Below, piece by piece: positions 1 through 31,015 of a stretch of DNA of 64,000 nucleotides. The DNA is from Aureliella helgolandensis (GTDB lineage: Bacteria > Planctomycetota > Planctomycetia > Pirellulales > Pirellulaceae), in the NCBI RefSeq assembly GCF_007752135.1, contig NZ_CP036298.1, positions 186,001-250,000 on the forward strand, read 5' to 3'. Each line of letters opens with the position of its first letter. Position 1 is the stretch's first letter. Position numbers and translations under genes: made by a program. The notes beneath the pieces are model-generated. The model did no database searches. It was not told where the DNA came from and saw only the letters and a list, made by a program, of their open reading frames with translations.

Positions 1-74
1 TCCGCAGCCGCGCCGAAACGCAGCAGAGACAGCACCAGCCATGCTGCAAGAAGTAGAGAGCGGGGAGACTTCAT
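1..74 (-). CDS. Exported protein, N-terminal signal peptide only (partial)
   Basis: An ATG at position 74 on the minus strand opens a frame that runs off the window edge. The 24 residues visible form a typical signal peptide: basic start (MKSPR), a hydrophobic core rich in Leu and Ala, and a small-residue end (GAAA). The mature protein is outside the window, so no function can be given. It lies 23 bases downstream of the stop of the SHD1/propeller gene in the same direction, so the two may be co-transcribed. Confidence 0.5.
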   Translation of the reverse strand, partial: MKSPRSLLLAAWLVLSLLRFGAAA

Positions 75-97
75 AGGTTCACGTCCGGGGCCATGGG

Positions 98-2284
98 CTA
101 GGATTGGGTGTCGATGATTCCGCGAATGGATACTTGGCTGGCTCCGAAGCCGTTCTGAAACTCTGGTCTCAAGATTTGGGGAGGCAGCTTAAGGTTCTTG
201 AAAAAGGCGGCATTCGGAACTTCAGCTTCCTTGGCGGATTCCTGCAAGGTTTTGTCGCCGTGAATCATAAAAGGTAGGCTGCTAGTAACACTCCGCTGCC
301 AGAGGATTTGTCCGTTTTGCTTCACTTCCACTTTGCAAATGTAAGGGGTGAAGGTCACTTTTTCATAACCGAAACCTCGGCCAATGATCCGATACTCTTT
401 GGTTTGCGTTTCACCGCGTGAGATGGAGGCGACCAACTGCGTCGTGGCTGAATTGCTGGCTTGATACCCCGACTCGGCAACGGCGGCGCCTAGCCAGCTA
501 TTGAGGTCAGCCGAGGAGATACCTGGTCCTGAAGCGCTGGCGACCACCGCCATGGACTCCCCCTCCCGGACAGCGGCAATGTTGGACGTGTCACGCTTGG
601 CACTTGCCAAGGCTGCGGGGTGAGGCAGGCGGACCAGGCCTAGCGATTTGGAACTCTCGAACGCCAGTAGGCCCTGGTGTTCCATGTCGGTATACTCGAT
701 TGCGTCATCAGAGATGTTGTATTTCCAAACGAGCAGGTTTTGATCCAGGTTGAGCAAGGCTCCCGATGGTAGAAGCAGATATTGGTCGTCCAGCCACATA
801 ATGGGCTTCCCCATCGATCCCAAATTTACATTGGCCTCATGGAATAATTGTTCTTGGCCAGTCTTAGCGTCGAAGACTCGCAGTTGAGTGCCACTGCATA
901 CGGCCAGTCTGAGTCCGTCGGGAGAGAAGCCGAGGGTTACCGAGCCCGGCATGTCGACCGGGATGGAACCAAGCTGTGTGCCGGTCTTTGACTCGACGAT
1001 CGCGCACTGATTGTCGAGCATGCAAGCGACATACCGACCGCCTGGGGAAATGGCAGGTTCATTGAAAGCCTTGGCCGGGTACGACCATATCTCTTCGCTG
1101 GTCCCATAGTCGAATCCACGCAATTGGTTGTCGGTCATCACGACCGCAACTTGATTCCCCAAGACTTTGCGAAACCGAACGTGGTCTGATTTTCCAGCCG
1201 CGTCGGGGAACAATCGCCAATGGGCGCGTACTTGAGGTTGCTTGGTAGCGATGCCCGAGATAATGCATAGACTGCTCGCCTTGTCTTCACCTCGTTTCAT
1301 CACGATTCCGAGCACGTCACCGCTCTCCGGATCGGCGGAGGCCAACCATACGGCATCCTCTTTAAATTCTCCCACCATGTCCGAGCTGCGGCGTTTGCCA
1401 TCGACCATGTAAATTTTGGTAAAGGGACTGTCGTCGCGTTGGGGAGAGCGAACTTGGTAGCAAAGTTGGGTGCCATCGGCCGAGATGATTACTGGGCGAC
1501 TCACCTCTTCACGAAAGGCAACTTCAGGGATGGTCATCGATGCATTGCCGATGTTGGAAAAATCGACGGGACTTGGATCGGCTTCCAAGTCGGCAGGCGG
1601 CGATAGGTTCTGAAAAGCAATACTCTGCTTGACGGAGAATGTGCTGGCTGCGGGCAGTCCGAAGCCAGCATTGCCTCCAAGGGAGCTCGCGCCGCTATGA
1701 ATCGCCGCATTGTCAGTGGTTGCACTGTTGTTGGCTGCACTGTTCGTTGGCGAACCGCTTCCTGGTTTCATGATGCCCGTTTCAAAGGGATTCGCATTGG
1801 CTTCTTCTAGACCAGCGACATACTCCTGATCGGCAGTCGACAGCGAGCCCAAGGGAACTTTGATCTGGGTGCCATCGGACTTCCTCAAAACGACCTCAAA
1901 GGCCGTTTGTGATTCGAGCGTGGCTTCAATCTTAAATCGCCCGGTGGCGTCACTCCAAGTCCGCGTGGGCTTACTAGCTGCTGGAGCGCCGAGGACCTTG
2001 ATGCTGTTGGCATTAACGATAATCTTATGCGTTTGTCCAGCGTGAACCGCCTCCACTTCAACGAACTTGCCGCCCGACCGTATGCCCAGTACTTTGCCAG
2101 TAAAGGTCTGCCCTGCTCTTTGGAATTCAACCGCATCTCCAACTTCAATCGCCAAGCCGCAGGTCCAGAAACTGAAGAAAACTATCGCGGATCGCAAGAA
2201 CAATTTACTTGCTCTTGAAAAGACAGAAGCAGAGTTCGTTGCCGGTGTTGGGGGCAGGTCGGTAGGCATGGTTATTGAATCCAT
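98..2284 (-). CDS. Secreted SHD1-domain and beta-propeller protein
   Basis: A protein of about 728 residues. After a hydrophobic export segment (about residues 24-42) comes a small beta-rich region, then an SHD1-like segment (about 110-160, ending in a VPLGSLSTADQEYV motif), a low-complexity Ser/Ala/Asn linker, and a long WD40/YVTN-type propeller with repeated SPGGRYVA- and SPDGLRLAV-like strands. SHD1 segments next to propellers are common in planctomycete exported proteins; their partners are unknown. The open frame continues upstream to 2599, but the extra residues are not protein-like. ATG at 2284 was chosen because it lies just before the hydrophobic segment; ATG 2269 is equally possible, and neither has a clear ribosome site. 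Function beyond a likely binding or scaffold role is not known. Confidence 0.75.
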   Translation of the reverse strand: MDSITMPTDLPPTPATNSASVFSRASKLFLRSAIVFFSFWTCGLAIEVGDAVEFQRAGQTFTGKVLGIRSGGKFVEVEAVHAGQTHKIIVNANSIKVLGAPAASKPTRTWSDATGRFKIEATLESQTAFEVVLRKSDGTQIKVPLGSLSTADQEYVAGLEEANANPFETGIMKPGSGSPTNSAANNSATTDNAAIHSGASSLGGNAGFGLPAASTFSVKQSIAFQNLSPPADLEADPSPVDFSNIGNASMTIPEVAFREEVSRPVIISADGTQLCYQVRSPQRDDSPFTKIYMVDGKRRSSDMVGEFKEDAVWLASADPESGDVLGIVMKRGEDKASSLCIISGIATKQPQVRAHWRLFPDAAGKSDHVRFRKVLGNQVAVVMTDNQLRGFDYGTSEEIWSYPAKAFNEPAISPGGRYVACMLDNQCAIVESKTGTQLGSIPVDMPGSVTLGFSPDGLRLAVCSGTQLRVFDAKTGQEQLFHEANVNLGSMGKPIMWLDDQYLLLPSGALLNLDQNLLVWKYNISDDAIEYTDMEHQGLLAFESSKSLGLVRLPHPAALASAKRDTSNIAAVREGESMAVVASASGPGISSADLNSWLGAAVAESGYQASNSATTQLVASISRGETQTKEYRIIGRGFGYEKVTFTPYICKVEVKQNGQILWQRSVTSSLPFMIHGDKTLQESAKEAEVPNAAFFKNLKLPPQILRPEFQNGFGASQVSIRGIIDTQS

Positions 2285-16177: not shown

Positions 16178-17476
16178 CTATTCCTGCGACTCGATGCAAA
16201 ACAGATGGTTTTCGCCACGAATGAAGATCTGGTCGTCGACGGGTGCGAGTGTCGTATCGACCGTTTCGCGCATGGAGCTGGTCGCTAAGATCTTGAGCTT
16301 GGGGGAATCTTCGATGACGACGATGACGCCACTGCGATCGGTCAAGTAGACCCGGCCGTCAGCAGCCACGGGGGAGGCGTAAGTGCTCACAAGGCCCGGC
16401 AACCGCTCCGCTGAATAATGGAATTTTCCAGTCTTGGCATCGACACAGCTGAGCAAGCCCGACTTGCCCTTGTAGAAATAGAGGCGATCTTCGCTGAGCA
16501 TGGGTGAGCCGATATCGGGTGCGTCGCGCTCAATGGTCCAGGCCACTTTGTCGGTCCCGCCGATGTCTCCATGGCCATCGGGTTTAAACGCTCCCACAAA
16601 CGCACCACGATAACCACTTCCCACAATCACGTGTTCTCCATCGAAAACCGCTGAGGACACCGGACGTTCCGTCTGCCCCGCGCACCGCCACAATTCCTGA
16701 CCAGTCTTCAAGTCGTAGGATCGCACGAAATTCTGGCCGTTCAGCACAACCTGTTTTCGTCCCTGATGGTCGACCACCAGCGGTGTGGACCAAGCGGTCG
16801 GTTCGTCTCTCGCGGTTCTCCAGACCGTTTCCCCAGTCAACTTGTCGATCGCATACAGGTAGGATTGCCCCTCGTGGTCCCAGGGGTGGAGCAGCAGGTT
16901 TCCCTCCAGAGTCGGGGAGCTCCCCTCACCGAAACTGAGTCGCGTTCGCATGGGGCCAAAATCGGTACGCTTCCAAACTAGGTTCCCGGTTGTCGAATAG
17001 CAGAAAAGCCCCTGGGAGCCGAAGGAGGCATAAACTCGCTCGCCGTCGGTGCAGGGAGAGGCCGAAGCGAAGCTGTTCGTCACATGGGTATCTTGATGGG
17101 GAGTGGCCGTGATGGCCGTTCTCTCCCACTGAAGACTGCCCGTTTCACGGTCGAAGCACAGGACTTTAAAGGCCAGGTTGGGCGTCGCGACTCCTCGCTG
17201 CCGTCCATCTTGGCCCGGTGTAGCCGGATCGGTGGTGGAGACAGCCGTGACCACAAACACCTGCGTTTCCCAGATTGCTGGCGAGCCCGAACTGCGGCCA
17301 GGAATGGGCACTTTCCATTTCACATTTTGGGTGTCGCTGAAATGGAGAGGCGGAGTCGCATGGGGTGCGGTGCCGTTCCCCGTTGGGCCTCGCCAGTGAG
17401 CCCAATTGTCGGCCAGTACCGTGGTGCATGAGAGGAGCAACGCTATGAAGAGTGGCAGGAGTTTATGTTTTCGCAT
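16178..17476 (-). CDS. Secreted PQQ-like beta-propeller protein
   Basis: A 432-residue protein with a signal peptide (MRKHKLLPLFIALLLSCTTVLA) and a propeller of PQQ-type repeats. The first blade begins NWAHWRGPTGNG; later repeats contain YAIDKLTGETVWRT, YDLKTGQELWR and CVDAKTGKFHYS. The WRGP start and the repeat pattern are typical of the large planctomycete family of BamB-like propellers. Most of these do not bind PQQ; some are thought to be scaffolds in the periplasm. No catalytic residues were seen and nothing in the neighbours narrows the role. Confidence 0.85.
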   Translation of the reverse strand: MRKHKLLPLFIALLLSCTTVLADNWAHWRGPTGNGTAPHATPPLHFSDTQNVKWKVPIPGRSSGSPAIWETQVFVVTAVSTTDPATPGQDGRQRGVATPNLAFKVLCFDRETGSLQWERTAITATPHQDTHVTNSFASASPCTDGERVYASFGSQGLFCYSTTGNLVWKRTDFGPMRTRLSFGEGSSPTLEGNLLLHPWDHEGQSYLYAIDKLTGETVWRTARDEPTAWSTPLVVDHQGRKQVVLNGQNFVRSYDLKTGQELWRCAGQTERPVSSAVFDGEHVIVGSGYRGAFVGAFKPDGHGDIGGTDKVAWTIERDAPDIGSPMLSEDRLYFYKGKSGLLSCVDAKTGKFHYSAERLPGLVSTYASPVAADGRVYLTDRSGVIVVIEDSPKLKILATSSMRETVDTTLAPVDDQIFIRGENHLFCIESQE

Positions 17477-17823
17477 GATCCAACTTCAGAAGAACGGACT
17501 GGCACAGGGGAATCGATAGTCTAGCAAACGTGTGGAGCTGTCGAAACGCACGCTTGCCGGGGCCCAACCGAAGCTGATGGTAGCTGAGAACTCATTCCGC
17601 TTGGGGACGCCCAAGACCGCTAGCGATCCCCGTTGTTTGCGATATAACCACACCCACCAACGGTCTGTGCGTAGTCGGCGAGAAACTACTAGCGAGAATC
17701 TAACAGTTGGCTGCCGAGCAGCCTGGCCGAGTGGTGCGACGTGTCTCTCCGGTCGCTCTGAAACGGGTTGGAGTTGCTTCAGGTGTAGTGTTGGCGTTTT
17801 CCTCAAAAAGGGGGCTGTTCGTC
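17477..17823. other. Divergent promoter region, no gene recognised
   Basis: About 350 bases between the divergent propeller gene and the CaCA antiporter. An in-frame extension of the antiporter reaches back to 17707 but reads as arginine- and valine-rich junk before the first membrane helix, so it is treated as non-coding. Confidence 0.5.
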
Positions 17824-18930
17824 ATGGATATGTCTATCGGCTGGGCGATTCTCGGAATTATCGGTGGGCTAGTGGCATTGGTGATCGGCGGAGAATTGCT
17901 GGTTCGCGGCGCTTCGCTGCTAGCAACCGCGCTCCGCATTTCTCCTCTAATCATCGGATTGACGGTGGTCGCTTTCGGAACCAGCGCGCCTGAGTTGGGG
18001 GTTAGCTTGCAAGCCGCACTAACCGGCAATGCGGATGTGGCAATCGGCAATGTGGTGGGTAGTAATATCTTTAACATCCTGTTGATCCTGGGATTGGCGG
18101 CGGTGGTTACCCCGTTGGTCGTTTCCAGTCAGTTGATCCGAGCCGACGTGCCCATCATGATTGGTGCCTCTCTTGCGCTGTGGGGGTTCAGCTTGGATCA
18201 GCGTCTTGAGCGTTGGGAAGGTGCGGTCCTGTTTGTGTCGCTGCTGGGTTACATCGTCTTTTGCATTCGGCAGAGTCGCCACGAGTCCGCTGCGGTGGTG
18301 CAGGAATTTGCGCAGGAGCTGCCTAAACCCAGCACATGGACGTCGCGTCGCAGCATTCAAATCTCGTTGATGATTGTGGGACTGGTGCTGTTGGGCTTCG
18401 GCTCCCATTGGTTGGTTGGCGGCGCAGTGAAGATCGCCACCGTACTGGGCGTTAGCAAGTTGATTATTGGTCTGACCATCGTGGCGGCCGGGACCTCGCT
18501 GCCCGAAGTGGTGACTTCGGTTGTTGCCAGTTTGCGAGGGGAGCGCGATATTGCTGTCGGCAATGTGATTGGTAGCAATCTATTCAACATTCTTTGCGTG
18601 CTGGGGTTGAGCAGCATCATTTCGCCGCAAGGCATTGCGATTGCCAAGGATGCACTGGAATTTGACATTCCAGTCATGGTGGCGGTGGCGGTGGTTTGCT
18701 TCCCTATTTTTCTGACTGGGAATCTCATTGCCCGTTGGGAAGGAGGATTGCTACTGTTCTACTACGTGGCCTACACCTTGTTGATCGTCTTGTCGGAGAC
18801 CTATCCAGAGCATGGTACGTGGTTCGCATCGATTCTGGCTTACGTGGTGGTTCCCTTGACGCTATTGACGCTCGTTGGATCCCTTGTTTGGGCGCGTCGC
18901 AATCGCCAGTCCGCCGAAAGTCTGCCGTGA
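17824..18930 (+). CDS. CaCA-family sodium/calcium antiporter
   Basis: A 368-residue membrane protein with the two inverted alpha-repeats of the CaCA family. Repeat 1: GLTVVAFGTSAPELGVS and AIGNVVGSNIFNILLILGL. Repeat 2: GLTIVAAGTSLPEVVTSV and AVGNVIGSNLFNILCVLGL. The GTSAPE and GTSLPE glutamates are the ion ligands, and the paired SNIFNIL and SNLFNIL segments are diagnostic. About ten membrane helices are seen. This is the YrbG-like bacterial branch, exchanging calcium or potassium for sodium across the inner membrane. ATG 17824 is supported by a purine-rich site (AAAAAGGGGG) nine bases upstream. Orientation is away from the propeller gene; it is probably transcribed alone. Confidence 0.93.
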   Translation: MDMSIGWAILGIIGGLVALVIGGELLVRGASLLATALRISPLIIGLTVVAFGTSAPELGVSLQAALTGNADVAIGNVVGSNIFNILLILGLAAVVTPLVVSSQLIRADVPIMIGASLALWGFSLDQRLERWEGAVLFVSLLGYIVFCIRQSRHESAAVVQEFAQELPKPSTWTSRRSIQISLMIVGLVLLGFGSHWLVGGAVKIATVLGVSKLIIGLTIVAAGTSLPEVVTSVVASLRGERDIAVGNVIGSNLFNILCVLGLSSIISPQGIAIAKDALEFDIPVMVAVAVVCFPIFLTGNLIARWEGGLLLFYYVAYTLLIVLSETYPEHGTWFASILAYVVVPLTLLTLVGSLVWARRNRQSAESLP

Positions 18931-21937: not shown

Positions 21938-23278
21938 ATGCACGAAAAGTCCGATCCGTTGTCGCAGCAAGAAGGTCGCATCAAGGAAATCCGTGAGCAT
22001 TTGCTCCGCCCCATTGCTGATAAGTTCGGATTCCCCATCGGTTCCGCCGGTTCCGCGTTGGGCATGCCAACGGTGCTCTGCCTCGGCAACCACTCGTCCG
22101 GCAAATCGACCTTCGTCAACCACTTGGCTGGCGACTCCATCCAGGATACTGGAGTGGCCCCCACGGATGACAGCTTTACGCTGATTACCTACGGCGCAGT
22201 CGAGGAGACCATGGATGGACGCGCGGTCGTGACCGACCCGCAACTCCCCTACCGCGATCTGGAGCAGTTTGGCAAGCCATTTCTCGATCATTTAAGGCTG
22301 AAACGCCGCCCAATCGAGACTCTCAAGAACCTGTGCATCATCGACAGCCCAGGCATGATCGACCATGCCGGAGAGCACCGTGATTCGTCGCGTGGCTACG
22401 ACTTCAAAGCGGTGGTTCGCGCGTTTGCCGAAACGGCTGATTTGGTGGTCTTCTTTTTCGATCCTGACAAGCCAGGGACGACGGGCGAGAGCCTGAGGAT
22501 TATCACTGAGTCGCTCAATGATTCGATGTACAAATTGTTGATCGTCTTCAATAAGGTCGACACCTTTGAAGATGTGCGGGATTTCGCGCGGACCTATGGT
22601 GCGCTCTGTTGGAATCTTTCTCGGGTCGTGCGCACCAAAGACATGCCCCACATTTATTGCACGTTCGTGCCCGACGCCAAAGGCGATCGCCCCCGCAGTA
22701 AGACGATTGAGCTGACGGAATTCGAGAAGTCGACCCGAGACTTAAAAACCGAAATATCTCGAGTTGGAGAGCGCCGGAGGACTAATATGGTGGGCGCTCT
22801 TCTCGACTCGACGCGCAGCCTTCAAGTCCATGCCACCGTCTGTCAACGCGTCGGCTGGAAATTGCTGGTTGAGAAACTCAGCCTCTGGACCGGTAGTCTC
22901 CTACTAACGCTCGGAGGTGCGGCGCTGGCTTGGTATGCCCGCAGCAACTCCTACGGACTCGCCGCAGGCGTCGTCTTGGCGATTGTGGGGATTGCTCTAG
23001 CCGTGCTGACTCCCCAGTTCTTGAAGTGGCGTTTGCAGCACCATATCGCATTGGTCGACAAGTACTTCCGGGAAAGCTTTCAAAAGAAGCTACTGTCGCA
23101 GCAAAATACCCGGTTCCTGGAAGGACTCTGGGAAAGCGTTCGACCGCGAACCGTCACTTTTCTCAATTCGGCCGGACCGCGGATCATCCCAGGAGCTCCC
23201 GTGTGGCCCGCTCGGCTGCGAAAACTCGATAACGCGATCGACAAGGATATCCCCGATTTGTTGAAGTCAACAAAATGA
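21938..23278 (+). CDS. EHD/dynamin-like membrane GTPase
   Basis: A 446-residue protein. The nucleotide-binding domain has P-loop GNHSSGKS (50-57), switch threonine in APTDDSFTLITYG (74-86), G3 DSPGM (136-140) and G4 NKVD (205-208). Beyond generic dynamin features it shares with eukaryotic EHD proteins an SRGYDFKAVVRAFAE segment (151-165), an FDPDKPG turn (174-180) and YGALCWNLSRVV (220-231), in the same order and spacing. The N-terminal helix (EIREHLLRPIADKFGFP) also fits. There is no EH domain; instead two adjacent membrane helices (about 317-333 and 340-358) and a basic C-terminal helix follow. Expected role: nucleotide-driven membrane remodelling at the cytoplasmic face. EHDs use ATP, so nucleotide preference is open. 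ATG 21938 excludes a non-protein-like extension to 21851. Confidence 0.85.
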   Translation: MHEKSDPLSQQEGRIKEIREHLLRPIADKFGFPIGSAGSALGMPTVLCLGNHSSGKSTFVNHLAGDSIQDTGVAPTDDSFTLITYGAVEETMDGRAVVTDPQLPYRDLEQFGKPFLDHLRLKRRPIETLKNLCIIDSPGMIDHAGEHRDSSRGYDFKAVVRAFAETADLVVFFFDPDKPGTTGESLRIITESLNDSMYKLLIVFNKVDTFEDVRDFARTYGALCWNLSRVVRTKDMPHIYCTFVPDAKGDRPRSKTIELTEFEKSTRDLKTEISRVGERRRTNMVGALLDSTRSLQVHATVCQRVGWKLLVEKLSLWTGSLLLTLGGAALAWYARSNSYGLAAGVVLAIVGIALAVLTPQFLKWRLQHHIALVDKYFRESFQKKLLSQQNTRFLEGLWESVRPRTVTFLNSAGPRIIPGAPVWPARLRKLDNAIDKDIPDLLKSTK

Positions 23279-23475: not shown

Positions 23476-24201
23476 ATGCGGCGTCTCATCGCAGTGATCG
23501 CGACCTTGGCAGGATCGGTTCTGACCGTCGGTACGCTTTCCGCTCAGATTCATGACCATCGCGGCTACCATAGCTATCACCATCAAACGGCGAATGCAGC
23601 GAGGTTGGCGGCGTACGTTGGGCAATTGGAGGAGGTCTGCAAGCATTTGCATGATGATACGCACGATCTCTCCCAGGACTATCGCCACTCTCAGGCCATC
23701 GAGTCGCATATCGACCAACTCGAGAGCCTCAAAGTCCACATGCATGAAATCTTGACGCAGGCCGTTGAGCGGGGGCACTACTCTTCGCAAGTGGATCGAC
23801 ACATCAAAGAGGATCTACTGGAAGCCAAGTCGCTATTCAGCGCCTACCATCGCTTGTTGCAGGGGCAGCTTCGCAGCGGCGCTAGGTCGGTGGACTACCA
23901 CACGTTGAAGCACATGCAGGAAGTCTTGCTGCATGAGGCTTTCCCGCTCGTTTCGCAAATTGAGAGCGAACTTTACGGAAGGCGTCAGTACTCGGGGTAT
24001 CCCCTGGAATTTCGGGGAACGTCGAGCGTTCACGAAGAGCACCGGGTGGCGCGTCCGACGTGGGTTGAGCCCTCGATCCCGAGTCGACCAACCTACACCC
24101 GTCCCTCACGCATTGGTGAGTATCCTGGTGGCCGCGGTTCTCGGAGAGGCGACTCGTCTGGACGCAGCATTTCCATCGGCGGCTTTCGCATCCAGTTCTG
24201 A
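23476..24201 (+). CDS. Secreted His-rich protein of unknown function
   Basis: A 241-residue protein with a signal peptide (MRRLIAVIATLAGSVLTVGTLSAQ) and a ribosome site AAGGAGAG at 23463-23470. The mature N-terminus is rich in His and Tyr (HDHRGYHSYHHQ). A helical core (about 40-165) has further spaced histidines (CKHLHDDTHDLSQDYRHS, KVHMHEIL, VDRHIKEDLLEAKS). The last 60 residues are Pro/Arg/Ser-rich and disordered. A helical bundle able to bind metal is plausible, but no family was recognised. It stands alone between the EHD-like gene and a strong hairpin. Confidence 0.75.
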   Translation: MRRLIAVIATLAGSVLTVGTLSAQIHDHRGYHSYHHQTANAARLAAYVGQLEEVCKHLHDDTHDLSQDYRHSQAIESHIDQLESLKVHMHEILTQAVERGHYSSQVDRHIKEDLLEAKSLFSAYHRLLQGQLRSGARSVDYHTLKHMQEVLLHEAFPLVSQIESELYGRRQYSGYPLEFRGTSSVHEEHRVARPTWVEPSIPSRPTYTRPSRIGEYPGGRGSRRGDSSGRSISIGGFRIQF

Positions 24202-25453: not shown

Positions 25454-27361
25454 GTGACGAAGGATTTTCATTTGCACGAACATCTTTTTCCGTTTTTTCT
25501 GGTTCTAGTACCGCTGTTGGGTATTGTGGCGCAATGGCTAGCCTGGCGGTTGCAGGTTCCCAGCATTCTGCTGCTACTGGGGCTGGGGCTGTGCTTGGGG
25601 ATTTGGATTTCCCCCGACCAGATTTTGAGCGATTTGGCAGGCACCGAAGATAACTTCGGTCCCAAACTCCTATTCCCGATTGTTTCGTTGTCGGTAGCGG
25701 TCATTCTGTTCGAAGGGGGGCTAACACTCCGCTGGAATCAACTGGGAGATAGCGCCAACATCGTCTTCCGTCTCATCACCGTTTCTTCGGTCATCACCTG
25801 GGTTTGCACGGCCGTGATGAGCAAATATATGCTCGGCTTTAGTTGGCAACTCGCATGGTTGCTGGGTGCGATCCTCATGGTCACGGGGCCGACAGTCGTC
25901 GGTCCACTCTTGAGGCAGATTCGCCCGAACCGTCGGGTGAGTTCGATATTGCAGTGGGAGGGGATCTTGATCGACCCGGTTGGCGCCGTGGCTGCGGTGT
26001 TGGTGTTCGAAGTCGTCGGGCATGCCGGGCACGTTACCTTTTTTGATATCTCCAGCATCGTGGTCGAGACCTTGGCCATTGGAATTATCATCGGCTGCTT
26101 GGCCGCCGTCCTGCTGGTGTTGGCACTCCGGCACTATTGGGTTCCCGATTTTTTGCATGGCGTGTTCTTCCTCGTCGTTGCCTTGGCTTCGTTCTGGGTC
26201 AGCAACTGGATGCAGGAAGAGGCCGGTTTAGTCACGGTGACCATCTTGGGCATCTGCCTCGCCAATCAGAACTACGTGAGTGTGGAGCATGTCCTGGAGT
26301 TCAAAGAGCACTTGCGTGTGTTGTTAATTGGCTGCCTTTTTATTGTCCTTGGTTCAAGATTGCAGTTGAGTGCCCTGGCGGATATCGGTTGGGTGGGGGT
26401 GCCCTTTGTACTCCTGCTCGTATTAGTCGTACGTCCCCTGTCGGTCTACCTGGGAACGCTCGGAACCAAGTGGCCAGCCAAGGAGCGATTGTTCGTGGGG
26501 CTAATCGCTCCTCGTGGAATTGTGGCCGCGTCGGTAGCCAGTGTTTTTGGGCTCAAGTTGGCTGCCTTAGCGGGAGGTGAAAATGCTGTCTCCTTCGACA
26601 AGGCTGCGTTGCTTGCACCAGTAACCTTCATGGTCATTCTTGGGACGGTTACCATTTGTGGCCTTGGAGCCACTCCCCTAGCCCGCCGACTGGGACTCTC
26701 CGACGCCAACCCGCAGGGAATTCTGTTCGCAGGAGCCTCAGCCTGGGTTCGGGAAGTTGCCTTAGCACTTCAGAAAGCCGATATTCGTGTAATGTTGATC
26801 GATACCAACTATGCGAAAGTCACCGCCGCTCGCATGGCTGGTTTGAGTGCCAAATGTGGTAACATTCTCTCGGAACACATTCAAGATGAACAGGATTTGG
26901 CGGGCATCGGTCGGTTCTTTGCCGTCACCCCCAGTGATGAAGTCAATACGTTGGCCGCCATGGAGTACACCCACGTTTTTTCACGTGAGAGTGTTTATCA
27001 GCTACCCAGCCAAGGTAAGTCGCACGGGCGTTGGCAGAGCATTCCTGACAACCGACGCGGACGAATGCTTTTTCAAAGTGACCTGACACACCACGTGCTG
27101 GAACAAATGTTCGCCGATGGGGCTAAGGTAAAGATTACTCTCCTGACCGATACGTTTGATATGGAAGCATTCCGAGCGCAGCATGGACCAGGGGCAATCC
27201 TGCTGGGAGCCATCAACTCCGACGGACGATTGCGAATTCGCACTACCCAAGCCAACTTGGAACCGGTTCCGGGGGATAGCGTGGTTGCCATCCTGCCAGC
27301 GGTTGCCAAACCTGTCGAACCGAATGATTCCAACGAGGCCTCTACGGCAGGATTGATCTAA
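25454..27361 (+). CDS. NhaP-type sodium/proton antiporter with RCK-like domain
   Basis: A CPA1-family transporter of 629-635 residues. About 12 membrane helices (1-415) carry the family motif around MVTGPTVVGPLLRQIRPNRR (ion-binding half) and LVEGILIDPVGAVAAVL-like helices. The cytoplasmic end (about 425-620) resembles a TrkA-N/RCK regulatory domain (GILFAGASAWVREVALAL, VMLIDTNYAKVTAARM, then FFAVTPSDEVNTLAAMEY), as in NAD- or ligand-gated antiporters. The GTG at 25454 opens the frame, but TTG 25472 has AAGGA at 25460-25464 with seven bases spacing and may be the real start. A membrane protein gene begins three bases after the stop, so both are one operon. Likely role: sodium or potassium homeostasis in a marine cell. 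Confidence 0.88.
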   Translation: MTKDFHLHEHLFPFFLVLVPLLGIVAQWLAWRLQVPSILLLLGLGLCLGIWISPDQILSDLAGTEDNFGPKLLFPIVSLSVAVILFEGGLTLRWNQLGDSANIVFRLITVSSVITWVCTAVMSKYMLGFSWQLAWLLGAILMVTGPTVVGPLLRQIRPNRRVSSILQWEGILIDPVGAVAAVLVFEVVGHAGHVTFFDISSIVVETLAIGIIIGCLAAVLLVLALRHYWVPDFLHGVFFLVVALASFWVSNWMQEEAGLVTVTILGICLANQNYVSVEHVLEFKEHLRVLLIGCLFIVLGSRLQLSALADIGWVGVPFVLLLVLVVRPLSVYLGTLGTKWPAKERLFVGLIAPRGIVAASVASVFGLKLAALAGGENAVSFDKAALLAPVTFMVILGTVTICGLGATPLARRLGLSDANPQGILFAGASAWVREVALALQKADIRVMLIDTNYAKVTAARMAGLSAKCGNILSEHIQDEQDLAGIGRFFAVTPSDEVNTLAAMEYTHVFSRESVYQLPSQGKSHGRWQSIPDNRRGRMLFQSDLTHHVLEQMFADGAKVKITLLTDTFDMEAFRAQHGPGAILLGAINSDGRLRIRTTQANLEPVPGDSVVAILPAVAKPVEPNDSNEASTAGLI

Positions 27362-27363
27362 GT

Positions 27364-28014
27364 ATGTTTACGATTCACTTTGCAATTGCGTCGATTCCGA
27401 TCGCTGTGTATTTGATGATGATCGGGGGCCTGCGCATGCGTTCGCGCCCCATGGTCACCACCGGTTGGCGTGACACGCTGACTCTCGGAATTGCGGTATG
27501 CGGCTTGGTGATTATCGGGCCAATGCAATTGTTCTTCCCAGCACAAGCCGCGATGCGATGGCATGGTTGGGTCTGGTTCATGATGCTCGGGCTCTACATC
27601 CTGGGCCTAGTCATGTTTCTCCTCAGCTGCCGTCCCAGGTTGATTTCCTATGGCATGAACCATCAGCAGTTTCGAGACACTCTTGAATCTGCGGCCAAGC
27701 AGGTTGACTCCGACGCCACTTGGCTGGGAGAAGTTTTAACCCTTCCCAATTCGAATATTCAATTGGCCAGTGAACCGGCGGGCAGCGGGCGAGTGCACCA
27801 AGTTGTTCATGTGGGGTTGCTCGATAATCTGCAAGATTGGCTCAAGCTCGAGCGTGCCTTCGTGTCTGCGGGGACCGCTGTGGTTTGTCCCAGGTCTGCG
27901 GCGGGATTCCCCTTCGTGCTCGCCGGCATGCTGTTGCTGCTGTCAGCTGTCTTTCCTTTGCTCTCCGATCCCACCACAGCCCATGCGCAGCTTATCGAGT
28001 TTCTGAATCGCTAG
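27364..28014 (+). CDS. Membrane protein cotranscribed with the antiporter
   Basis: A 216-residue protein with about three N-terminal membrane helices (3-25, 40-60, 70-90), a cytoplasmic or periplasmic domain of about 90 residues (QFRDTLESAAKQVDSDATWLGEVLTLP onward) and a C-terminal helix (about 180-200). No family recognised. Its start follows the antiporter stop by two to three bases, so translational coupling and a role in the antiporter's function or assembly are likely. Its last 23 bases overlap the 3' end of the convergent cytochrome gene at 27992. Confidence 0.75.
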   Translation: MFTIHFAIASIPIAVYLMMIGGLRMRSRPMVTTGWRDTLTLGIAVCGLVIIGPMQLFFPAQAAMRWHGWVWFMMLGLYILGLVMFLLSCRPRLISYGMNHQQFRDTLESAAKQVDSDATWLGEVLTLPNSNIQLASEPAGSGRVHQVVHVGLLDNLQDWLKLERAFVSAGTAVVCPRSAAGFPFVLAGMLLLLSAVFPLLSDPTTAHAQLIEFLNR

Positions 28015-31000
28015 GATCGAGTTTGGTTTGAGGTGGCAGGACATTCAACCATAACGGACGGCTGGTCGCCTTGCCGGCTGAGTCGTTCTGAAGATGGAAT
28101 TGGCGTCGTCCCGGCTGTAGTTTGGGAGCTGCGGTGATGAAGAACTCCCGTTCGTTCTGCCCCTCCGGAATCAATAGTCCATTGAGGCCAATGTTGTCGA
28201 CGTAGGCCCCGTGGGGCAAATTGCGTCCCGAATCATCCCCCCCGAAACTAACGCGACTCTCGACCCCCTGCCGTTGTATCAAGATGCGCGCTGAGATGGT
28301 CTCTCCAGGCCGAATGGAAAGCTCTTCCACTTCGCGATTCGAGTCCGTGGCATCCACAATTTGGAATTGCAATTCACTACGTTCGACTAGAGTCACCTCC
28401 AGCGTTTCGTTCAGTTCATGTTCGATCCGCTGTCCGGCCACTTCGCTGGAAGCGATGAGTTTGATTACGAAAGGTTCGGGGGGCATTGTGGTGGCGACTT
28501 CCTGCGCGCCCTCGGCCGCGTTCGCCAAGGCATTACTGCCGTCCTCTGTGAGCTCCTGATTGGATGAGGTGTCCGGCAGGATTGCCGCAGCTGGGGTTGC
28601 ATAGAGGGTGCCGAAAGCGCGCTCCTGGCCTGCTTCGATAATCAGCGGATTGGTCGCCAGAAATCCATTCGGTACTCCCTCTAAGGCGATGCAAATAGGG
28701 CCCTCAAGACCGTCGCTGCGCGTGGCGGTTACACTCCATTCTCGTCCACTGTCAATCGGCATCGACAATTTGGAATTACCAACACTAAGGGAGAAATCTG
28801 GTTTGGGACGGCGGATTTCAAGTTCATATTTGAAATCGTCGCCCGAGAAACCGCGCGCATCGCGGACCCGTGCGATGTAGTCAGCAGTAGCGGGAGCAAC
28901 AAACTCAAGGCGTGAATCGGCCCCGTGCCGGCGGAATGGGTCGTCATCATTCTCAAAATAGATGGGGAAGACAGGCAAGCCGTTAGGGAGTGGTTGTTCA
29001 GCGAGAGCGAGTTCGCGAACAATATAGCCCGTGGCACCCAAGGCGTGCGAAACCGGCGTGGTGTCAAAATAGGTGCGACGACTGCCGACTCCTGGATAGA
29101 CTTTGAAACCGGAGTCGGGACCACGCGGATAGAGCCATAATCGTGATACCTCTCCCTCTGCATAAAAGTACTCGTCTAGCTCCATGTCCTCCCATTTATG
29201 CAGCCGAAAGTCATCACTGGTCGCGCTGTCCTTCCCGCGAAAAGTGAAGTAGGACTCGCGCACCGCCTGCAGCCGAGTGCGTAGGAGACTTTGAGAGTCC
29301 ATTCCCAAGACCTCTATGCGACTATCCAGTGGCGAACCATTTCGGCTAGCCATGACTTCGAAAATCCACTGCTCACCCGCCTGGGCGGAGAACTTGAAAT
29401 AGTCGGCATCAACCTCGTTGCCTACGGCATCTACACCCGCGATGGCTCCAGCCACCTTTGCAGGCAGGCTGATTCGCGTGGCCTCAGCCACCGAATTGTT
29501 CGGCTCAACTTCGGTAAAGTCATGCGGTGCGGGAGGCCTAGCCTGAGGGGCGGTTTTCGGCTGAGTTGCAGGTGCGGAAGCCTCAAGAAGAAGGCTGGTG
29601 GGAGTAGAAGCCTCCTCGGCAAGCGTTTGATGTTTGCCCAGCAAGGGGCTTGCTAACCAAGGACTCTGGCCGGTGATCTGTAGCACTTGGATTCGCAAAT
29701 CGCTGTTGTCGGCCGCTGCCTTGTGCGTTCTAGTCAATATGGCCACCGGCACATCAGCCAGCTCTGCCAGTTGGCCGAGCGACTTGAGCTCTTCGGCCTG
29801 CCATAGTTTGGCCGTCAGATCCGCTGATGTGGAAACGAGCTGTCCTGCATTGACGAATTCCAATTGCAGGACGGTTGATTCATGCGCGTATCTCGCGTGC
29901 AGCATCGGATTAATCGCTGGCTTGTCGCTCGACACAATTTGCCAACAGCGTATTTGGCGATCTGCGCCTGCAGCGAAGACGTGCTGGGCGTCGGGTGCGA
30001 ATCGTACGCAATACATCTCGCCTTCAGGTTGCCCAAAGGTATCCAGACGCAGGCCGGTCGCCACCTGCCATAGCTTGACGGTTTGATCTCCGCTGGCCGT
30101 TGCCAAGAGCTTGCTCTGTGCGTCAAAATCGAGATCGTAGATGGCTCCATTGTGTCCGGTCAGTTCGCGTACTGCCTTTCCCGTCGCTACGTCCCACAAT
30201 ATCACCTTGCGATCGTAGCTCCCGGATGCAATCCACTTTCCATCCGGACTCAGGGATGCGCAGTAAACTGCATCGGAGTGCCCCTGCAGACGCTGGACGA
30301 TTTTTCGACTGCTGATATCGATCACAGCGATTTCACCAGCAACTCCAGTTACTCCGCTGCCGACGACTAGTTGTTTTCCATCGGCGCTGGTGCGTAGCGA
30401 ATTCACTTTCCCGCTGAATCCCTCTAGGCTCCACTGTAGGGTTGTGTCTGGGGCGTCGTAGATGTCAACGCGACCAAACCGTCCGATGGCGATCGCACCA
30501 CCTGGAAGACTACACCCAGTGCTCGCGAACTGATTTTCCCGCGGCGCGGTTGGCAGTTGCGGTGCTGCGATCTCAAGTTGCATGGGGGATGCGGAGTCGT
30601 TGTCCGCCCCGTCAAGAATCCATTGCCGTAGTTGTTTGATCTCTTCCCCTGAAGGCTGTACTTCGTCCTCCGGCGGCATGCGAGGTTCCTCTGCTCCTGT
30701 CAGCAATTGCCATAGATGACTCTTCTCGGGTTGCCCAGGCACGATGGCGGGTAGCTCTCGAGAATCGGCCATGAGTGAGTCGTAGGAAGCGACCGAAAAA
30801 TCCCCTTCCGGATCGGTCGCTCCGTGGCAGCCCGCACAATATTGGTCGAGAATTGGTCGCACTTGAGAATAGGTAACCAACTCGGCGGCATAGCTCCAGC
30901 ACGTCGCCGTCAGTCCTAGGCAGAATACTGCCCCCCACAGCAAGGCGGTGCGCAAATATTCAGCAGCAGATCCAAAGGCGTTTTTCGTCCGCAGGGGGTG

Positions 31001-31015
31001 AATGAGGATGCGCAT
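27992..31015 (-). CDS. Cytochrome c (PSCyt1) / WD40 / pre-peptidase domain protein
   Basis: A 1007-residue exported protein. A signal-like helix (about 25-44) precedes a planctomycete cytochrome domain with heme motif CAGCH (60-64). A WD40 propeller follows (about 195-470; repeats such as VYCASLSPDGKWIASGSYDRK and LWDVATGKAVRELTGHNG). A PPC-type beta domain (about 510-605, EVEPNNSVAEATRI) comes next, then more beta-rich regions to the end. Probably a periplasmic redox or scaffold protein; electron partners unknown. It is transcribed in the same direction as, and 100 bases after, the DUF1501 gene, so the cluster probably has three members. The 3' end overlaps the convergent gene by 23 bases. 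Confidence 0.88.
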   Translation of the reverse strand: MRILIHPLRTKNAFGSAAEYLRTALLWGAVFCLGLTATCWSYAAELVTYSQVRPILDQYCAGCHGATDPEGDFSVASYDSLMADSRELPAIVPGQPEKSHLWQLLTGAEEPRMPPEDEVQPSGEEIKQLRQWILDGADNDSASPMQLEIAAPQLPTAPRENQFASTGCSLPGGAIAIGRFGRVDIYDAPDTTLQWSLEGFSGKVNSLRTSADGKQLVVGSGVTGVAGEIAVIDISSRKIVQRLQGHSDAVYCASLSPDGKWIASGSYDRKVILWDVATGKAVRELTGHNGAIYDLDFDAQSKLLATASGDQTVKLWQVATGLRLDTFGQPEGEMYCVRFAPDAQHVFAAGADRQIRCWQIVSSDKPAINPMLHARYAHESTVLQLEFVNAGQLVSTSADLTAKLWQAEELKSLGQLAELADVPVAILTRTHKAAADNSDLRIQVLQITGQSPWLASPLLGKHQTLAEEASTPTSLLLEASAPATQPKTAPQARPPAPHDFTEVEPNNSVAEATRISLPAKVAGAIAGVDAVGNEVDADYFKFSAQAGEQWIFEVMASRNGSPLDSRIEVLGMDSQSLLRTRLQAVRESYFTFRGKDSATSDDFRLHKWEDMELDEYFYAEGEVSRLWLYPRGPDSGFKVYPGVGSRRTYFDTTPVSHALGATGYIVRELALAEQPLPNGLPVFPIYFENDDDPFRRHGADSRLEFVAPATADYIARVRDARGFSGDDFKYELEIRRPKPDFSLSVGNSKLSMPIDSGREWSVTATRSDGLEGPICIALEGVPNGFLATNPLIIEAGQERAFGTLYATPAAAILPDTSSNQELTEDGSNALANAAEGAQEVATTMPPEPFVIKLIASSEVAGQRIEHELNETLEVTLVERSELQFQIVDATDSNREVEELSIRPGETISARILIQRQGVESRVSFGGDDSGRNLPHGAYVDNIGLNGLLIPEGQNEREFFITAAPKLQPGRRQFHLQNDSAGKATSRPLWLNVLPPQTKLDPSDSETR

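Follow-up and report, generated by a model that had tools for sequence, protein, structure and literature searches.

An EHD-like dynamin-family protein with a predicted membrane hairpin in a planctomycete genus

EHD proteins are called eukaryotic in the abstract of PMC9741607, and the review PMC13282721 uses neither of the strings 'prokaryot' and 'sarcalumenin' (0 occurrences each); leaving its references aside, it has a single passage with 'bacteri', on Listeria. What, then, does a gene encode that reads like an EHD and lies in a planctomycete genome? The window analysed here, a 64,000-nucleotide stretch from Aureliella helgolandensis, holds such a gene at 21938-23278. From its sequence the original prediction had proposed an EHD-type G domain, a membrane anchor and a part in shaping the invaginated membranes of planctomycetes. 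The gene is real and its product is an EHD-type dynamin relative, very likely an EHD-like, membrane-anchored dynamin. We think it probable that the protein also works like an EHD, as an anchored EHD-type dynamin that reshapes membrane by acting as a scaffold.

Kinship to EHD proteins in sequence and in trees

The motifs run along the 446-aa protein in the order GNHSSGKS (G1), APTDDSFT, DSPG (G3), SRGYDF, FDPDKPG, NKVD (G4) and YGALCWNL; the order expected of an EHD was thus recovered, collinear with EHD4 and EHD2 over the G domain. Pfam gives a Dynamin_N match at 6e-14. Searched against PDB sequences with phmmer, the protein matches EHD4 at 2.3e-38 (residues 42-302, collinear) and EHD2 at 2.6e-37 (residues 33-301), both with small gaps only, and BDLP at only 0.012; no mitofusin stands among the 21 matches up to E=1. 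The family to which it belongs has 22 members, 4 in the window's genus and 18 elsewhere, of which 21 were aligned (alignment A1), L011 being left out as a near copy of L009 and L003 lying on the same contig as L001. A profile of these 21 members finds EHD2 and EHD4 at 3e-60 to 2e-59, positions 6-306 of the profile matching EHD2 residues 18-321, and its single non-EHD match at 1e-5 or below is chain C of the bacterial dynamin 5owv, at 1.7e-8. Scored with the family profile, EHD fragments reach 207 and 191 bits and a more distant EHD-like protein (L025) reaches 111; none of ten other bacterial dynamins exceeds 61. As a control, a 581-aa planctomycete dynamin matched BDLP best (1.6e-11) and EHD at 0.0099. 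By these comparisons the protein resembles EHDs in particular, and far more closely than chance would allow. The features of the gene and its product are as follows.

21938..23278, + strand: gene for the EHD-like, predicted membrane-anchored dynamin-family protein; 446 aa, ATG at 21938, end 23278
21956..22024, + strand: N-terminal helix, residues 7-29, the equivalent of the N-terminal helical-domain segment of EHDs in the model; the profile aligns position 6 to EHD2 18
22085..22108, + strand: P-loop, residues 50-57, GNHSSGKS; invariant in 21/21 except S54 (19/21), G-N-H-S-[SA]-G-K-S
22157..22180, + strand: switch I region, residues 74-81, APTDDSFT; D77 in 21/21, at the position of EHD2 T94 (hand count)
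22343..22354, + strand: G3, residues 136-139, DSPG; D-[ST]-P-G in the 21 members
22391..22405, + strand: RGYDF, residues 152-156, common to EHD; R152 and F156 invariant
22457..22489, + strand: FDPDKPGTTGE, residues 174-184, a run that marks the bacterial family; in its place EHDs have FDAHKLEIS or FDAHKLDIS
22550..22561, + strand: G4, residues 205-208, NKVD; N-K-[VM]-D in the 21 members
22595..22618, + strand: core of helix alpha6, residues 220-227, YGALCWNL; W225 aligns with W238 of EHD2 dimer interface-1 (hand count)
22877..23011, + strand: predicted membrane hairpin, residues 314-358, in which a short turn joins two hydrophobic helices; it lies at the tip of the helical domain (model and hydropathy)
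23054..23272, + strand: return helices, residues 373-445, the C-terminal part of the helical domain, with no EH domain after them (model and Pfam)

Conservation within the family falls on both EHD-like and private features. The YG-LCWNL run of helix alpha6 is invariant in 21/21 and A222 is kept in 19/21, so that by sequence comparison the tryptophan of dimer interface-1, W225 here, is present in every aligned member; in EHD2, according to PMC9741607, the mutation W238A in this interface yields insoluble protein. Equally invariant (21/21) is the PGTTGE run. The original prediction had taken FDPDKPG for an EHD-specific turn, which it is not: EHDs have FDAHKLE there, with only the FD and the K in common. 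The oligomerisation loop itself is present (L108 in 19/21, F111 in 19/21, G112 in 21/21); its KPF motif is not kept, reading L-P-Y in the window protein, with K at position 103 in 0/21 members, L there in 16/21, P at 104 in 14/21 and F, Y or W at 105 in 18/21.

A further substitution lies in switch I, where Asp77 replaces EHD2 Thr94, which we take to be the catalytic threonine, in all 21 members; hydrolysis may for this reason differ or be lost. Might the protein be a membrane scaffold that binds nucleotide and does not hydrolyse it, with binding alone driving assembly once Asp77 had removed the catalytic threonine? The fixation of D77 while T76 varies speaks for such a scaffold, and the intact P-loop, G3 and G4 speak against it, as do T81, T181 and T182, which are invariant in the 21 members, so that another threonine may serve; we hold this reading to be improbable, if the least so of the alternatives considered here.

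Trees were built without the near copies L011 and L031 and the fragment L028, and a second one also without L025 and one Lysinibacillus dynamin. The first (34 rows, 309 columns) has a split of 100/99 between ten other bacterial dynamins and a set made up of the family, L025 and two mouse EHDs, within which EHDs and family group without L025 at only 85/70; in the second, EHDs and family separate from nine other bacterial dynamins, again at 100/99. Both splits are to be read for trees with two eukaryotic rows, long branches that drew a program warning, no outside root, and bacterial relatives from this phylum alone. Asked whether the bacterial set branches with EHDs or with bacterial dynamins, these trees place it with EHDs. 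Sequence, predicted fold and tree together support an EHD-type protein, and none of the refuting outcomes accessible to these comparisons came about.

Several related proteins were seen in passing. L025 (1102-2535, - strand, in genome G064) has 478 aa, finds EHD4 as its best PDB match (1.5e-8), carries VDDKFT in switch I and ends in a region that is hydrophobic by eye. A separate family of dynamins of about 580 aa (L026, L027, L029-L035) is represented in f60 and f109, both families of this phylum; one of its members, L030, matches LeoBC at 3.8e-18 in PADLOC and BDLP at 1.6e-11. On the Lysinibacillus plasmid pFN9B three consecutive genes (L061, 1-5114) encode dynamin-family proteins, and fexA, a predicted resistance gene, follows some 2 kb further along.

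Predicted fold and membrane hairpin

The AlphaFold model of the 446-aa protein has a mean pLDDT of 85.8 and a pTM of 0.80, residues 72-76 falling below a pLDDT of 50. In Foldseek its top five matches are EHD entries, at 3.9e-19 to 4.6e-14, with moderate TM-scores (0.47-0.62 by query length, rmsd 6.7-10.6); IniA and BDLP come next, at about 2e-9 and TM-scores of 0.34-0.37. VIA-align pairs residues 9..446 of the model with residues 22..401 of membrane-bound EHD4 (7sox; Z 30.1, rmsd 4.5, 371 aligned) and gives Z 29.5 for EHD2 (2qpt; rmsd 3.4, 347 aligned) and Z 26.6-27.3 for open crystal forms of EHD4, at an rmsd of about 9, against 19.1 for Fzo1 (rmsd 3.7, 296 aligned), 16.3 for IniA (4.0, 203) and 15.3 for BDLP (3.3, 195). 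A second model, of a member from another class, was built on alignment A2, the 17 of the 21 A1 rows that come from outside the window's genus; it matches EHD4 5mvf at Z 30.7 (rmsd 5.5, 369 aligned) and 7sox at 30.3 (rmsd 4.3, 378 aligned; 6..448 against 22..408), as against 18.4 for mitofusin (rmsd 9.2, 310) and 15.6 for BDLP (rmsd 7.5, 312). Over both models EHDs thus score Z 26.6-30.7, mitofusins and Fzo1 16.2-19.1, and BDLP and IniA 15-16. The two share one layout: after a first helix and the G domain, some 60 residues form a helix that leads into the membrane stretch, followed by a short turn, a second long helix and return helices. The match that had been sought with EHD2 and EHD4 therefore extends over nearly the whole chain, and the helical (stalk) domain of EHDs, whose segments flank the G domain on both sides, is present in the predicted models. 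For the C-terminal helices the EHD likeness is structural, the sequence match there not being significant.

How might such a protein be held at a membrane? Two hydrophobic stretches, at residues 314-332 and 340-358, would form a hairpin. The first is weak in the window protein, with a Kyte-Doolittle mean of 1.37; a cut-off of 1.6 leaves a single stretch, and at that value 159 of 2000 shuffles have two or more. The case for the hairpin consequently rests on its recurrence, two stretches lying at the same place in 20/20 members that extend past it (Kyte-Doolittle mean of at least 1.3; L017, cut by a contig end, was left out of the count), and on the two models. It is also the least conserved part of the protein, with a mean share of the majority residue of 0.33. 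In EHD4, according to PMC9741607, the loop between alpha8 and alpha9 (N323, M324, F325) inserts into the membrane. By hand count over an ungapped extension of the alignment, N323-F325 falls at about residues 311-313 here and the predicted hairpin starts at 314, which puts it at the membrane tip of the EHD fold. The proposed membrane anchoring is in this way supported by prediction, from two models and 20/20 members. It had further been said that two membrane helices replace the EH domain; the two helices are indeed predicted and the EH domain is absent, no EH domain or EF-hand match being found by Pfam in the window protein or the 21 members, yet the helices do not stand in the place of the EH domain, since the helices of residues 373-445, which the model aligns with the EHD helical domain, follow them and the chain stops at 446, right after the helical domain.

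A dynamin G domain joined to a membrane-spanning tip also recalls mitofusins and Fzo1, whose tip helices, according to PMC6104087, give permanent attachment to the membrane, and which are the next best folds after EHDs. On a mitofusin- or atlastin-like reading, the hairpin would anchor one membrane and G domains would pair across two, tethering or fusing them. We regard this as unlikely: the EHD structures outscore the best mitofusin by 7.5 to 12.3 Z units, so that mitofusin is the best match neither in fold nor in sequence, where it does not appear up to E=1, and the core of the EHD-type alpha6 helix is invariant.

A possible mode of action and its relation to known systems

From the computed features, that is, an EHD-type G domain and fold, the conservation of alpha6, the hairpin and single-copy occurrence, all of which are supported, we infer how the protein might dimerise, form filaments and act on curvature, with what topology and nucleotide, and in what cellular role. 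On the EHD-like mode of action that we favour, the transmembrane hairpin at the tip of the helical domain would be a permanent anchor and the protein would form homodimers via helix alpha6, as EHDs do. Filaments that depend on nucleotide would then assemble at the cytoplasmic membrane, on its inner side, where they would stabilise or reshape curved membrane, hydrolysis serving as a slow timer for disassembly. EHDs themselves use ATP in place of GTP.

The protein is not a member of the EHD family in the strict sense, because it lacks the EH domain and the KPF motif. With EHD1-4 (EHD2 2qpt/4cid, EHD4 5mtv/7sox) it shares the collinear course from N-terminal helix through G domain to alpha8, the helical domain, the alpha6 tryptophan and RGYDF; unlike them it would carry a transmembrane hairpin at the inserting tip, and it has D77 for T94 and PGTTGE for LEISDE. 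Nor is it of the BDLP type. With BDLP, IniA and the dynamin pair 5owv it has a bacterial dynamin G domain in common, whereas its matches to them are far weaker than those to EHDs and it does not branch with the bacterial dynamins. Most bacterial dynamins are gene pairs, according to PMC6104087, whereas this family shows one match per genome (19/19 genomes with a strong match), and no second dynamin lies among the eight neighbouring genes scanned.

Its kind is already in print. A 2020 study (Front Genet, PMC7016017) holds that EHD and sarcalumenin are of bacterial origin, that in the bacterial homologues nearest to them the GTPase domain is followed by two transmembrane helices, and that a proteobacterial lineage supplied the eukaryotic progenitor. 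The planctomycete protein answers to that group as a close EHD homologue with two predicted transmembrane helices after its GTPase domain, the group being defined here by its published description. The string 'planctomycet' occurs 0 times in the main text of PMC7016017, and the planctomycete family possibly overlaps with its set, in which the proteobacterial lineage is named as the source of EHDs. In the literature searched, mostly open-access, we found no account of a planctomycete EHD relative.

What could such a family say about EHDs themselves? We tentatively suggest, as a conjecture with clearly less than even chances, that it is their membrane-anchored counterpart, with a hairpin where the eukaryotic loop dips into one leaflet and a rebuilt catalytic centre (the switch I Asp and the invariant PGTTGE). 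If so, EHD-type filaments existed in bacteria as fixed scaffolds, and peripheral binding and the EH domain are eukaryotic changes. Through a bacterial protein that has the EHD dimer helix and a predicted transmembrane anchor, the origin of this membrane-bending machine would become testable at the bench.

Distribution and genomic setting

Is the protein a shaper of planctomycete membranes in general? Its distribution argues against this. The gene is found in 4 of the 15 genomes of the window's genus, several of which are incomplete (73-86%); of the 9 with a completeness of 90% or more, 3 carry it (hand count). Elsewhere in the family and order 25 genomes were searched and none has it, and a profile scan of the class, limited to each genome's four top-ranking first-look candidates, found it in 3 of 397 genomes, all of the window's genus; this sample presumably includes relatives of Gemmata, as NCBI ranks put Gemmata and Planctomycetaceae in one class. 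Across the phylum 70 of 392 genomes match at E<=0.001, of which 19, the window's included, do so strongly (E <=7e-79, the next being 7e-18), each with a single match; the 18 besides the window's all lie outside its class. Because the gene is so rare among planctomycetes, the general role in their invaginated membranes that had been proposed for it is unlikely and we reject it, and a tempting explanation for these membranes falls away. A contig search returned one locus, identical to contig C334 of the carrier genome G001. Viral contigs gave 0 relatives, phages one weak match only, and plasmids one weak match in one search and none in another. The gene is accessory, and this genus may have gained it.

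The gene adjoins a sulfatase gene that reads away from it, and downstream lie genes for an unassigned 241-aa protein, for a glycosyltransferase and for a Na+/H+ exchanger. The Dynamin_N cut-off is also passed by two further genes of this genome, both scoring higher as MMR_HSR1 GTPases and one having an EngA/Der C-terminal domain. An operon or conserved partner was sought in 21 loci besides the window and rejected, no immediate window neighbour lying beside the gene in other carriers; the genes were picked crudely, by longest frame, and the test is weak in GC-rich loci because longer overlapping frames displaced the EHD-like frame in 4 of the 22 loci (L046, L048, L053, L054). In one subgroup a gene for Sua5 (threonylcarbamoyl-AMP synthase) divergently adjoins the EHD-like gene in 4/4 loci (L055, L056, L057, L059), its identity Pfam-checked on two of the four. 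Relatives of the window gene at 27992-31015 occur in four other loci, and of that at 16178-17476 in one.

Within the genus, three genomes have a relative of the downstream 241-aa gene, and one of them, G010, which lacks the EHD-like gene, shows an empty site: an acetyltransferase gene and the 241-aa gene adjoin in the same divergent order, and the sulfatase and EHD-like genes, which separate those two in the window, are not there. For the other two genomes the stretches examined show no acetyltransferase, and in G001 the downstream genes lie on another contig. The empty site fits gain here and loss there equally. A foreign base composition was considered and rejected; GC (0.56) and codon use match those of the neighbours and so give no sign of transfer, and the repeats flanking the segment are only short and imperfect.

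Patchy, accessory occurrence and an empty site in a relative would suit a dynamin for stress, membrane repair or phage defence of the DynA, IniA or Leo type, as would a local PADLOC match to LeoBC (6.5e-5), but that match covers 83 residues of a 601-position model, Pfam recognises none of the eight neighbours as a defence gene, and BDLP and IniA stand far below EHD in sequence and fold, which leaves this the least probable of the alternatives to an EHD-like scaffold.

The 241-aa protein (23476-24201) has a signal peptide by eye and no Pfam match, and occurs in 4 of the 15 genus genomes. A Na+/Ca2+ exchanger (17797-18930) and the Na+/H+ exchanger (25454-27361) lie a few kb on either side of the EHD-like gene.
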